Assembly (NCBI RefSeq): GCF_900109575.1
Contig: NZ_FOAF01000001.1
Location: 1,087,662-1,151,661, forward strand
DNA length: 64,000 nt
Direction of reading: 5' to 3'
Source: Olivibacter domesticus
Lineage (GTDB): Bacteria > Bacteroidota > Bacteroidia > Sphingobacteriales > Sphingobacteriaceae
The notes below the pieces were generated by a model. The model saw only the letters and a list, made by a program, of their open reading frames with translations, was not told where the DNA came from and searched no databases. Below, piece by piece: positions 1,143 to 37,496 of the stretch (position 1 is the stretch's first letter; each line of letters opens with the position of its first letter). Made by a program: the position numbers and the translations under genes.

Positions 1143-4100
1143 TTAAAAAGTCAGGTTTACCCCAACAGATACAATACGGTTCAGGTTATATGTATTGTCA
1201 ACTGTTCCATTGAAAGCACCAACCGTATTCATACCTTTTCTTTTTGTCCACAATGCTAAATTCTCAGCGCTGCAATAAATATTCGCATTTTGTGCTTTCA
1301 AATGGTTTAACCATTTCTTTGGAATCGAATAGCTTAAAGACACGGTATTTAGCTGAAAATAGGAAGCATCTGTTAAAAAGCGATCGCTAATACCAGCATA
1401 GTTAGCAACCTGACCGTTGTCTAATCGCGGTACGTCTGTGATATCTCCAGGATTCTGCCAACGTTTAAGCGCATCAACATGCATAGCTGTTCCATAAGTA
1501 CCTCCATGCATGAGAGAACGGTAGGCATTATCGTACACCTTACCACCTACCTGATAAGTAAATTGCACGAACAACGAGAAATTCTTACAACTAAAATTAT
1601 GACTCATCGCACCATGAAAGTCAGGGATGGCTGATTCTCCCGTATAAGTGTAATTTGCCTCTGCAATCTGGTTGGTTACTGTATCCTGACCAATGATTCG
1701 TGTATTATTAGTTTGCTGATTGGTATAGTACAATGCCTCTCCATTGTCTGGATCTACCCCATAAAAGCGTCTCATATAAAAATCATATACAGAATGCCCT
1801 ACACTGTAGGCTTTGGTACCATCCTGAATCAATGGTTGGTTATCCGGCATTTTCGTTATTTCGTTCTTGAAAGTTGTCCAATTCAGTGTAGCCGAATATT
1901 TAAAATCACCGGTATTAACGATCTGTCCGGTCAACTGAAGTTCAACCCCTCGATTATACAGGTTACCGATATTACTATTAATTTTAAAGTAGCCTTCGCT
2001 ACTTCCAAGATAATTTCCTCCATTAGACATTGGTTGAGGCACCGCGAAAATTAAACCGCTTGTTTCCCTATTAAAGAACTCAAGGCTACCTCCTAAACGG
2101 CCTTTAAAGAAACTGAAGTCTATACCGGCATCAAAATTTTTAGCTGTTTCCCAAGTGAGCTCCTCGTTTGGTAAGGAGTTCTGCGTAAATCCTGCTTCGC
2201 TCTGATTATTACGCCCCAGTAAATACAAAGCTTGATACGGATAGTAACCAAAGGCATCTCCACCTCGGTCATTGCCAACCGTACCGTAGGAAGTACGGAA
2301 CTTTAGCTGGTCAACCCAGTCCACATCAAAGAAATCTTCACGATCGATGTTCCAAGCAGCACTTAAAGACCAAAAATTTGCCCAACGTACTCCAGGAGCA
2401 AATTTTGAGTTACCGTCCCTACGCAAACTACCGCTAAAGATGTACTTACCGTCGTAGTCGTAGTTAACCCGCGAAAGGTAGCTTTCGATCGTTGCATTAT
2501 GTTCATAAGATTGTAAGCCCAAAACGGTAGCAAAATTATCCAACTCTGTAATTCCCTGTGCAATCAAACCACTTCTGCTACCATTAAAGTTATTGTATTT
2601 ATAGCTGTAGTTTTCGTGACCGGCCAACACGTTTAAGTTGTGCTTCCCGAAGCTTTTTGTGTACTCTATTAATTGATTAAAAGTATAGCTTGTGGTGCGG
2701 TAAAAATACTGATAAGCCCTGCCGGAAGGAGCTCCATCACCTAGAGTGGGATTGTCGTAAGTTCTATTATGTGTATCGAGCAGGTCAAAGCTAATATTGG
2801 TCGTTGCCTTTAAACCTGGCACGATGAAAACCGTTCCATAAGCCCTTGCATTCACCTGTCCCCGTACCTGATTCTGTGCATCCATTAAATTTTCGTAGAT
2901 CGTATGCCTTCCGGGTGCAAAAGGTCTATTATCTCCAAAATCATACCGGGGCTGTCCATTCGCATCTAAAACCAATGCACCTGTTTCATCGTGCAGATGT
3001 ACCGGATAAATAGGTCCGATAAAACGGGAAATATAGAAAGGATTAATGTAACCAGTACCACCGTCTCCCACATTGTCATACTGTGCCTTTGAATAGTTAC
3101 CGCTTACATTCAAGCCAGTTTTGAAAAAATCCAACGGTTGCGTGTTGACGCTTAATCTGGCGGTATATCTTTTTAAGCTCGACTTCACCAGGTAGCCCTC
3201 TTCGTCAGTGTATCCGAAAGACCCATAATAATCTGAGCTACTCGATCCACCGCTGTAGCTCAAATTATAGTTTTGGCGTTGCTTCCCCCCTTGCGTCGAT
3301 TGTTCCTCCCAATTGAGATCGTCAGGATATAAGAGTTGCGCGTTTGGATTCAGTTCGCCATTTGCATTGACAATCTGGTTATCCGGTACGTTAAAAGGAT
3401 TATAACCCAATAAACTGTTTATTCCCGAATATCTTCGTCCGTTATATTCCGTTGTAAGCCCCGCTGCAATACTACCTGCCACATCCCTGGGTATCCTAGC
3501 ACTGCCATATGCTAACGAATTTCGATATGTTTCCCACATCAGTGGATAATATTGCGTTGCCGTCACCCGATCATACTCAGGCAAGCCTCTACTAATCCAA
3601 CCCTTACTGGCTTTTACGTTTAGATTTTTACTATCAATCTTACCTTTTTTTGTCGTGATTAACACTACGCCATTAGCGCCTCTAGAACCATACATTGCCG
3701 TTGTGGCAGCATCCTTCAGTACCGATATGGATTCTATATCATCTGGGTTAATACCGGCCATATCTCCTTCGAAAGCGGCTCCATCTAATACAATAAGCGC
3801 ACCATTTTCAGCTGATAGAGAACCAAAACCTCTAATACGAATAGACGGACTGGCCCCCGGAGCGCCACCTGCCGTAGTCGATTGTACTCCTGGCGCAGAA
3901 CCGGCAATGGAGCTTAATGCGTTGGTGATAGGTCTCTTCTCAATTAACTCAGCACTGATTTTTCCGGATGATCCGGTAGCTAGGGCTTTATTTATACTCC
4001 CGTAGGCCACTACCACTACCTCGTCCAAAGCATTCTCTCTCGAAGCCAGCTGTATTGTCAATAAAGTTTGTCCCGATGTAGCGATCTCTTTTGTGGCATA

Positions 4101-8577: not shown

Positions 8578-8640
8578 TTTTTTGTTCTGAATCGAGATTT
8601 ATTAGTAAAGTCATGGATCCAGTAAAATTTCTAATGATTA

Positions 8641-8741
8641 TGAACCGTCCATGTTTAAAATTTCATTTTTATCACACAGGGAAATGTAAATTTTCAACAT
8701 GGTAAGCTCCATCTGACCGATGGATAAAAAATTATTTACAG
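8641..8741 (+). repeat. Structured leader repeat, copy A, ending at a start codon
   Basis: This copy matches the complement of 37325-37404. Shared blocks in order are TGAACCGTCCATGTTTA, ACATGGTAAGCTCCAT, GACCGATGGATAAAA, ATTATTTAC and GATGAAA, the last including the start codon of the following gene. Hairpin 1 has a conserved base CCATGTT (8649-8655) and AACATGG (8696-8702) and here an inner stem AAAATTTCATTT/AAATGTAAATTTT. Hairpin 2 is TCCAT (8708-8712) and ATGGA (8720-8724). The inner part of hairpin 1 is unrelated in sequence to copy B, yet paired in both. Confidence 0.7.
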
Positions 8742-9164
8742 ATGAAAAAAGATAACCTTTATATTTCTACGGATAAATCACTTTTAGATATCAACTTAAT
8801 CTATCATTACCTAAGCCTAGAATCCTATTGGGCAAAAGGCAGAAGCAAAGAAACAATTGAAAAATCGATTCAACATTCATTATGTTTTGGTATCTATGAT
8901 AACACGAATAAACAACTTGGTTTTGCTCGAGTGGTGAGTGATTATGCTGTATTTGCTTGGTTAATGGATGTATTTGTGTTAGACGATTATCAGGGAAAAG
9001 GTCTGGGGAAACAACTTATAAACGCAGTAGTTAACCATCAAGATCTACAAGGACTTAAAAGATGGGGACTTGGCACAAAGGATGCCCACAGCTTGTACGA
9101 AAAGTTCGGTTTTCAATCGCTTTCAGAGCCAGATAAAATGATGGAAAGATTACCTTTTTCATAG
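8742..9164 (+). CDS. GNAT-family N-acetyltransferase
   Basis: A 140-residue acetyltransferase with motif A at about 77-90 (VFVLDDYQGKGLGKQL) and the motif B end (DAHSLYEKFGFQSL). The opening residues LLDINLIYHYLSLESYWAKGRS and the segment FARVVSDYAVFAWLMDVFV are typical of a widespread small GNAT group of unknown substrate. The ATG at 8742 follows directly after the leader repeat copy A, so translation or transcription may be controlled by that structure. It shares only the fold and motif A with the GNAT at 7726 and is not an obvious recent duplicate. Confidence 0.87.
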   Translation: MKKDNLYISTDKSLLDINLIYHYLSLESYWAKGRSKETIEKSIQHSLCFGIYDNTNKQLGFARVVSDYAVFAWLMDVFVLDDYQGKGLGKQLINAVVNHQDLQGLKRWGLGTKDAHSLYEKFGFQSLSEPDKMMERLPFS

Positions 9165-28064: not shown

Positions 28065-28256
28065 ATGCAAGAAGGCGTAGTAAAATTTTTCAACGAAACT
28101 AAAGGTTTCGGATTTATCACCCCCAACGATGGTGGACGTGAAATTTTTGTTCATTCATCTGGGTTAAAAGACCGTATTCGTGAGAACGATGATGTTGTAT
28201 TTGATGTAGAACAAGGTCAAAAAGGTTTAAACGCAGTAAATGTTAAGTTGGCATAG
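28065..28256 (+). CDS. Cold-shock domain protein
   Basis: A 63-residue single cold-shock domain (OB fold) that binds single-stranded nucleic acid. RNP1 is visible as KGFGFITP and RNP2 as EIFVHSSGL, with [13 protein letters not shown] at the start and [17 protein letters not shown] at the end. It is a close paralogue of the protein at 30190-30381 (same length and layout). It has its own promoter element and a strong terminator, so it is probably monocistronic. A role as an RNA chaperone under cold or other stress is family knowledge. Confidence 0.95.
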
Positions 28257-28276
28257 TTCAACATTCAGATATTGAC

Positions 28277-30189: not shown

Positions 30190-30381
30190 ATGCAAAAAGG
30201 AACTATAAAGTTTTTTAACGAAAGTAGAGGATTTGGATTTATCACATTACAATCCAGTGAAAACGAAATATTTGTACATATTTCAGGATTAATTGATAAA
30301 GTACGGGAGAATGATGAGGTTGTATTTGATGTTGTACAGGGCCCTAAAGGCTTAAGTGCTGTCAAAGTAAAAATCGCCTAA
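30190..30381 (+). CDS. Cold-shock domain protein
   Basis: Second 63-residue cold-shock domain with RNP1 RGFGFITL and RNP2 EIFVHISGL, start QKGTIKFFNESRG and end VVFDVVQGPKGLSAVKV. It is clearly paralogous to the protein at 28065-28256, but the RNP1 tail is RGFGFITL instead of KGFGFITP. It lies 69 bp downstream of the small basic ORF and 140 bp upstream of the sigma-factor gene, with a likely terminator between. Expected role: nucleic-acid chaperone under stress. Confidence 0.94.
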   Translation: MQKGTIKFFNESRGFGFITLQSSENEIFVHISGLIDKVRENDEVVFDVVQGPKGLSAVKVKIA

Positions 30382-30398
30382 TTCTTTGGTCTTTCTGA

Positions 30399-37324: not shown

Positions 37325-37404
37325 CCGTAAATAATTTTTATCCATCGGTCGTATGGAGCTTACCATGTTTATCCGCCAGCTGGCGGATAAACATGGACGG
37401 TTCA
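37325..37404 (-). repeat. Structured leader repeat, copy B, ending at a start codon
   Basis: Reverse-complement partner of 8641-8741. In the minus-strand direction it reads TGAACCGTCCATGTTTA, a palindromic centre, ACATGGTAAGCTCCAT, ACGACCGATGGATAAAA and ATTATTTACGG directly before ATG 37324. The conserved base of hairpin 1 (CCATGTT/AACATGG) is kept, but the inner stem is a different sequence, TATCCGCCAGCTGGCGGATA, still perfectly paired. Hairpin 2 differs from copy A only in two loop bases (AC versus CT). Confidence 0.7.
37363..37396. repeat. 34-bp perfect palindrome
   Basis: A perfect inverted repeat centred on CAGCTG, extending CCATGTTTATCCGCCAGC and its complement. It fills the heart of leader repeat copy B. 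Because it is palindromic, both strands encode the text CLSASWRIN, which makes misleading extensions of the gntK reading frame and of a plus-strand frame. Its TCCGCCAGCTGGCGGA core resembles dispersed palindromes I recall from Bacteroidota genomes. Confidence 0.85.
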
Positions 37405-37496
37405 TCATTCTTTAAAGTCTTTTTTTTCCTAAATACAGATTCAGTTCAAACAGGCATCTATTTTTGCCCTGTTCATGCCAAAGCGTTAATCGTCAG

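Follow-up and report, generated by a model that had tools for sequence, protein, structure and literature searches.

What kind of sequence runs exactly into the start codons of two unrelated genes? In the window, by which we mean the whole 64-kb stretch of Olivibacter domesticus DNA that was analysed, a preliminary description had noted one such sequence twice, once before a GNAT acetyltransferase gene and once, on the opposite strand, before a carbohydrate kinase gene. Both copies (A and B) are present, with their limits corrected by a few bases to those listed in Table 1, and a 29-nt core occurs 2 times in the 64-kb window compared to 0 times expected by chance. Just as described, the first hairpin (P1) stands in both copies on a CCATGTT/AACATGG base with unlike insides, and the fold of each copy gives a z score, relative to shuffles, of -2.8 (copy A) and -5.4 (copy B). 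Two features had been missed, namely that the motif CATCTG is complementary to the CAGATG that contains the start codon (we refer to this pairing as P3), and that the pentamer ATGAA is repeated at both ends of the unit. Homology between the copies had been traced through the ATG itself; ATGAA does stand at each end, but it is better read as a target than as a start codon carried by a leader. In the case of copy B, the unit is followed by the start of the kinase gene, ATGAA at 37324-37320 (-).

Table 1. Positions of the two element copies, their parts and the genes they precede in the window
Feature	Position	Strand	Basis
Copy A, unit ATGAACC...TTTACAG, type I, inserted before the GNAT gene	8640..8741	+	sequence, model match
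Left ATGAA of copy A, one copy of the repeated target	8640..8644	+	sequence; element-free/filled comparison at lpd
Right ATGAA of copy A, start and second codon of the GNAT gene	8742..8746	+	sequence
Copy A hairpin P1, CCATGTTTAAAATTT...AAATTTTCAACATGG	8649..8702	+	fold; covariation
Copy A P3 5' arm CATCTG	8710..8715	+	complementarity and covariation
Copy A P3 3' arm CAGATG, start codon inside	8739..8744	+	complementarity and covariation
Copy A alternative hairpin P2, TCCATC/GATGGA, competing with P3	8708..8724	+	fold; without covariation support
GNAT acetyltransferase gene, PF13508 and PF00583	8742..9164	+	family search
Copy B, unit ATGAACC...TTTACGG, type I with nested palindrome	37325..37405	-	sequence, model match
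Copy B hairpin P1, 15 bp, AGCT closing	37363..37396	-	sequence, fold
Palindrome TCCGCCAGCTGGCGGA inside P1 of copy B	37372-37387	-	sequence; perfect palindrome
Copy B P3 5' arm CATACG, one mismatch to CGGATG	37350..37355	-	complementarity
Copy B P3 3' arm CGGATG with start codon	37322..37327	-	complementarity
FGGY carbohydrate kinase gene, PF00370 and PF02782	35816..37324	-	family search; start set by element-free orthologues

The preliminary description had predicted many more copies in the genome and had made copies in this genome or its relatives a test of its reading; many were found in both. In particular, the host genome (6.78 Mb in 23 contigs; Olivibacter, Sphingobacteriaceae) contains 15 copies with at most 3 mismatches to a 35-nt core (0 in a reversed control), 20 matching a 24-nt core, and 48 matches to a covariance model at E ≤ 0.1, 30 of which reach E ≤ 0.001 (our own count with rough E-values; 16 of 100 fetched places are without the core by regular expression, and some weak model matches may be false). 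An exact search for the core of what we call type I copies in the genomes of 84,980 species, a search that may omit records close to the window, returned 11 stretches, all of them from Olivibacter, Pedobacter or Parapedobacter. With the covariance model, which was built from 18 copies with P1 as its sole structure, at least 105 of 301 family genomes and 10 of 25 genera had matches at E ≤ 0.001, the figure being a lower bound because 13 candidates were scored per genome. A pattern describing the right end, GCTCCATCTGAC-N12-42-ACAGATGAA, was found in 55 of the 301 family genomes and in 5 of the 25 genera (98 rows by our own count, with 0 in the control columns). In a phylum-wide draw of 296 genomes, this pattern was found in 2, both Sphingobacteriaceae, and in 0 of 288 sampled Bacteroidota genomes outside the family. 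Searches of the type I core against viral contigs, and of one type I copy against plasmids and phages, gave no match.

Two types of element can be told apart, which have GCTCCATCTGAC...ACAGATGAA in common and in which the register of P1 is identical: type I reads ATGAACCGTCCATGTTTAAA...TTTAAACATGGTAAGCTCCATCTGACCGATGG...TTATTTACAGATGAAA and type II reads ATGAACCCGACATGATTAAAATAATCATT...AATGATTATTTTAATCATCAAAGGCTCCATCTGAC...AAACAGATGAAA. The unit, ATGAACC...ACAG, is about 80-210 bp long, and the left half is missing in copies L013, L024, L026, L029, L031 and L139. A tandem arrangement of type II was found in L173 (G323:C1:4627288-4627428), where two cores and three right ends follow at a spacing of 100 bp; in L163, L165, L189, L194, L123 and L208 a second right end, ACAGATGAA, adjoins the unit and no second core was found. 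Some copies are elaborated further. Long copies (L007, L008, L009, L019, L033, L039 and similar ones) contain extra hairpins, for example AACCGCTTTGCGGTTCATGAGTGCC or CCCTTCGGGG, and CGGTTCAT is the reverse complement of the left end of the element, ATGAACCG. The perfect palindrome of copy B is likewise nested at varied places in P1 of L002, L004, L005, L007, L011, L014, L015 and L132, and looks like a second, smaller palindromic repeat housed in the first. We also considered a conserved leader peptide read from the left ATG (MNRP or MNPT followed by a stop, longer in Olivibacter) and rejected it, as frame and length differ among copies.

Evidence that the element has moved comes from near-identical copies and from sites with and without it. 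Three copies in the host genome, L001, L003 and L006, share 98-99% identity across the element and have flanks no more alike than background; they are thus not segmental duplications. For the kinase gene next to copy B, the core is absent by regular expression from the 200 nt upstream of the gene in all five genomes with a close orthologue, and ATGAA is the start in two of these five orthologues. The orthologue of the GNAT gene in genome G001 begins ATGAAAAACGAGC / ATGAAAAACGAG, with the element absent before the start as judged by eye. For neither window copy could the exact site without the element be aligned in relatives, the flanks being too diverged, and thus the junction claim rests on the lpd gene.

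We read the start of lpd in 90 Pedobacter genomes (30 loci returned and 60 fetched) out of 143 with a match. The core is present in 24 of the 90 regions, a right-end-like CAG, CGG or TAG without the core in 19, and neither in 47. In 16 of these 47, by our classification by eye, the promoter stretch known from filled sites (CTCTTTAAAATAGAT or a near variant) is kept and runs directly into ATGAATTACGA or ATGAACTACGA, such that the junction reads ...GAT (or GGT, AAT, AGT) and then ATGAA. In 16 of the 24 core-bearing regions, again classed by eye, a full type I unit, ATGAACC...ACAG, lies between the promoter stretch and ATGAATTACGA. The lpd sites thus have the form of a target-site duplication, with one ATGAA in element-free sites and two around the element in filled sites, a form in which a duplicated target and an ATGAA borne by the element read alike. 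The left ATGAA is altered in 4 of the 16 full copies (L239, L260, L264 and L266). Scars occur as well: ten regions, classed by eye as short scars, read AGAT / TAAAAAACAG / ATGAA or a version one A shorter and retain only TTAAAAACAG or TTAAAAAACAG, and others are decayed. Most of the remaining regions with neither feature also look element-free, though the sequence upstream differs, and a few (L280, L286) appear to hold remnants. These comparisons show that insertion is precise, with ATGAA at both ends. Moreover, the element is dispensable at lpd, since it has decayed or been scarred in many lineages while the gene stays. (Note that a conserved block similar to GGAGACTCCTTC..AGAAGATTAC precedes the lpd promoter in L241, L251, L258 and others, by eye independently of the element.)

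The lpd site was probably hit more than once, because L295 has, as classed by eye, a complete unit of type II at that start codon while L293, whose promoter stretch is similar by eye, is element-free (L295 and L293 are joined in no tree). When 30 lpd genes are placed in a tree, L241, which is element-free, falls inside the group of filled and scarred alleles, and the two remaining element-free rows lie apart from that group, fully supported. The forks around L241 have moderate support, 91-93/88-92, with one drawn open. This placement suggests a precise loss of the element in L241; replacement by recombination could also account for it.

The claim that copies lie before start codons stood in large part. 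Of the units collected by regular expression, 104 of 124 precede an ORF of at least 50 codons (or one open to the fragment end) and 20 do not, in a set that includes repeated orthologues (lpd, ilvE-like, tgt, sucC) and a few wrong pairings left in the counts (e.g. the second row of L053, L024, L129, L331, L250). The claim fell short in the host genome, where 15 of 23 rows are at ORF starts and 8 of 23 precede no ORF of at least 50 codons. In the window, 15 occurrences of the pentamer ATGAA are at chosen gene starts, 62 are in non-coding sequence and 189 lie inside genes. Compared to the 15 of 77 start-or-non-coding ATGAA sites that are starts, the 15 of 23 host rows represent an excess (p 2e-6, or 4e-4 when the 26 first-ATG sites of ORFs of at least 50 codons are counted as starts, with the two window copies in both counts). 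In addition, 30 of the 98 rows were taken by the right-end pattern alone, without hairpin 1 or the left end. Of these 30 loci, 29 precede an ORF of at least 50 codons, 23 form 8 or more of the 10 P1 pairs, and 28 match the left end with at most 2 mismatches (a few of the latter, e.g. L348, L349 and L354, being chance or wrong picks); 9 of the 30 loci are one gene, sucC. The downstream genes are otherwise unrelated, and include what we take to be lpd, sucC, an ilvE-like aminotransferase, tgt, acylphosphatase, bioD, SusD-like lipoproteins and others (these were named from their first translated residues, the GNAT and FGGY genes alone by family search).

Compensatory changes argue for both P1 and P3. 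In a set of 18 copies (A1), 96.2% of the P1 and P3 cells are paired and there are 10 double changes (8 in P1, 2 in P3) compared to 2.1 in shuffles (0/500); in 17 orthologous lpd copies (A2), 95.7% are paired and there are 4 double changes (3 in P1, 1 in P3) compared to 0.8 (1/500). Note that the copies are related, such that the shuffle figures are not probabilities and the test is inflated by kinship, and that the events at lpd are few. Among the lpd copies, CCAT/ATGG of P1 has become CCCT/AGGG in L249, and the outer C-G pair is U-A in L263, with the U-G form in L257. Because many copies were found with the P1-based model, counts of P1 lean towards P1, the exception being the 30 loci chosen by the right end. 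All 6 positions of P3 are paired in 98 of the 124 rows, with variants including CATTCG/CGAATG and CATCCG/CGGATG, and pair 5 shows six double changes compared to a shuffle maximum of 3 (Fisher p 9e-7, on related rows).

The second hairpin of the preliminary description (P2, TCCATC/GATGGA) fared less well than the first. It had been said to be kept, and both window copies could form it, but few of the outer C-G pairs survive in type II and none do at lpd. Covariation in the stems, which had been anticipated, was found for hairpin 1 and not for hairpin 2, where the shuffle maximum was exceeded nowhere. The median predicted probability of P3 is 0.50 in type II, 0.11 at lpd and 0.02 in other type I copies, and P2 is favoured in the predicted fold of type I copies outside lpd. 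In this model, sequestration of the start codon is not predicted by energy alone for type I copies outside lpd, and a switch between P2 and P3 in type I is possible. Of the natures that had been offered for the element, a mobile sequence (borne out by the lpd sites and the unrelated flanks) and a structured leader at gene starts (borne out by the compensatory changes in hairpin 1) each hold in part.

We looked for an enzyme that might mobilise the element. The Y1 transposase family (PF01797) had 0 matches in the host genome (G000) and none in 7 of the 9 other genomes searched, leaving 2 of 10 genomes with matches. Around 6 PF01797 loci there were isolated partial matches to one or two parts of the element (L222, L224, L226), and the left end was never found together with the core and right end. 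The Y2 family (PF04986), the partner to be expected of an IS91/ISCR derivative, had matches in 0 of 10 genomes, and no control genome matched either. No autonomous copy with far-apart ends was seen in the host genome, and no left end was present in the upstream ~1500 nt of the half-copies L013, L024, L026, L029 and L031 or in the upstream ~350 nt of L133 and L139. The host genome contains 26 left-end matches compared to 7 in the reversed control at that threshold; of four that were inspected (L331, L333, L335, L337), two are in elements and two look like chance.

Small interspersed, MITE-like repeats of bacteria include REP-BIME, RUP, BOX, ERIC and Correia elements. The element is closest in kind to these: a mobile repeat the size of a MITE, with the start codon as its target and a leader that can pair with it. 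It resembles them in being ~100 bp long, present in many copies, hairpin-forming, non-autonomous and in part tandem, and it differs in its fixed orientation, in its exact ATGAA junction at start codons and in its complementarity to the target start codon. Like a MITE, it occurs as non-autonomous dispersed copies with unrelated flanks; unlike a MITE, it is without terminal inverted repeats by eye (after ATGAA it reads CCGTCC or CCCGAC, compared to CTGTAAAT or CTGTTTAT for the reverse complement of the right end). Elements of the IS200/IS605 family and those moved by REP-associated tyrosine transposases are asymmetric, form hairpins, keep a short target at one end and use guide-like pairing. The present element shares with IS200/IS605 its hairpins (P1, P3), a specific short target (ATGAA), apparently precise loss in one case and guide-like pairing, but has ATGAA at both ends, no Y1 match in its own genome and no autonomous copy found. 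It thus departs from MITEs in its ends and from IS200/IS605 derivatives in the want of a transposase match. Riboregulators that sequester the start codon include RNA thermometers and translational riboswitches; the element is like them in holding the start codon in conserved complementarity and in having alternative P2 and P3 pairings in type I, and unlike them in its dispersal by insertion, without a common gene class.

No description of such an element was found among the open-access PMC matches listed, and Rfam gave nothing credible over the element in the window at the gathering score or in 20 loci at permissive thresholds (the weak matches that L010 and L019 show close to it are to eukaryotic or viral families, E>2). 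Pedo-repair RNA (RF01715), a structured RNA reported in Pedobacter, is among the Bacteroidota motifs given by Weinberg et al. 2010 (PMC2864571); it is similar to the element in being a structured RNA of Pedobacter, but does not match over the element in the window or in the 20 loci. In Pedobacter locus L178, a Flavo-1-like RNA match lies at 1303-1370 (-), with 37.1 bits (gathering 42) and E 1.2e-4, ~200 nt upstream of the copy that precedes sucC.

The explanation that we favour, and hold to be rather likely, is that the sequence is a non-autonomous mobile element of Sphingobacteriaceae with ATGAA, chiefly of start codons, as its target, and that its copies become structured 5' leaders that persist through an effect on translation. 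The element would insert precisely before ATGAA, for the most part where that pentamer begins a protein-coding gene, leaving ATGAA at both ends and the gene with its start codon and upstream stretch, and would then form the last part of the 5' leader of the gene. The transcript is predicted to fold into P1, and just 3' of it CAUCUG may pair with the start-codon CAGAUG as P3. Formation of P3 in the RNA could affect translation, and copies most likely would persist because the start-codon hairpin tunes or conditions translation. The substrate of mobility may be hairpins in single-stranded DNA, to which the want of terminal inverted repeats, some tandem units and one apparently precise loss all point. 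A more tentative extension, which we think possible but doubtful, gives the CATCTG arm a double role, as an insertion guide (in single-stranded DNA or RNA) and then as a portable translational switch, with the lpd and sucC copies kept as regulators. If the favoured explanation is correct, one short mobile sequence equips many unrelated genes of a bacterial family with one kind of structured leader, in which the start codon is part of a conserved complementarity, and this would be a direct route for new post-transcriptional control to spread through a genome. Element-free and filled lpd alleles would then be natural pairs with and without the leader, and the roughly 100-base element would be a candidate portable switch for protein production.

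The element might instead be purely selfish, with P1 and CATCTG/CAGATG serving only as DNA hairpins for transposition, by guide pairing to the target ATG like that of IS200/IS605-type systems, and start codons being merely the ATGAA sites where insertion does least harm. This we consider somewhat unlikely. It would accommodate the ATGAA at both ends, the hairpins without terminal inverted repeats, the copies outside genes and the decay, as well as the position of L241, without the element, amid filled and scarred lpd alleles; in addition, the left flanks of six copies (L163, L173, L189, L194, L123, L208) end in the right end ACAG, and L173 alone of these has another complete core, 100 bp upstream. 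It accounts poorly, however, for compensation in P1 at orthologous lpd loci, a setting that does not involve transposition, for the over-representation of start codons relative to non-coding ATGAA, and for a host genome without a Y1 transposase match.

Shine-Dalgarno sequences are little used in Bacteroidota. In such a phylum, a right end rich in A (for example AAAAACAAAAATAAACAG before ATG), as seen in type II and at lpd, might make a good initiation region, and P1 might protect the 5' end, such that the element would be a cassette that enhances translation or mRNA stability. The right-end-like stretch kept without the core in 19 of 90 lpd regions fits such a cassette, but the placement of the start codon within conserved complementarity in both types does not, nor do the ten lpd regions that are down to TTAAAAACAG or TTAAAAAACAG, and we regard it as distinctly unlikely. 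Finally, an ordinary, vertically inherited cis-regulatory RNA of a regulon (a riboswitch or protein-binding leader) would explain why the element is kept before lpd, sucC, the ilvE-like gene and tgt in several Pedobacter genomes, but is disfavoured by the element-free sites and is highly improbable, given unrelated downstream genes, close orthologues without the element, near-identical copies with unrelated flanks and no Rfam match over the element.

Two further observations were made in passing. In the host genome, 17 of 20 type I cores have the minus orientation on their contigs (p 0.003), contigs themselves being arbitrarily oriented. The window also contains a pair of 120-nt direct repeats, at 28140-28259 and 30265-30384, that are 70% identical.
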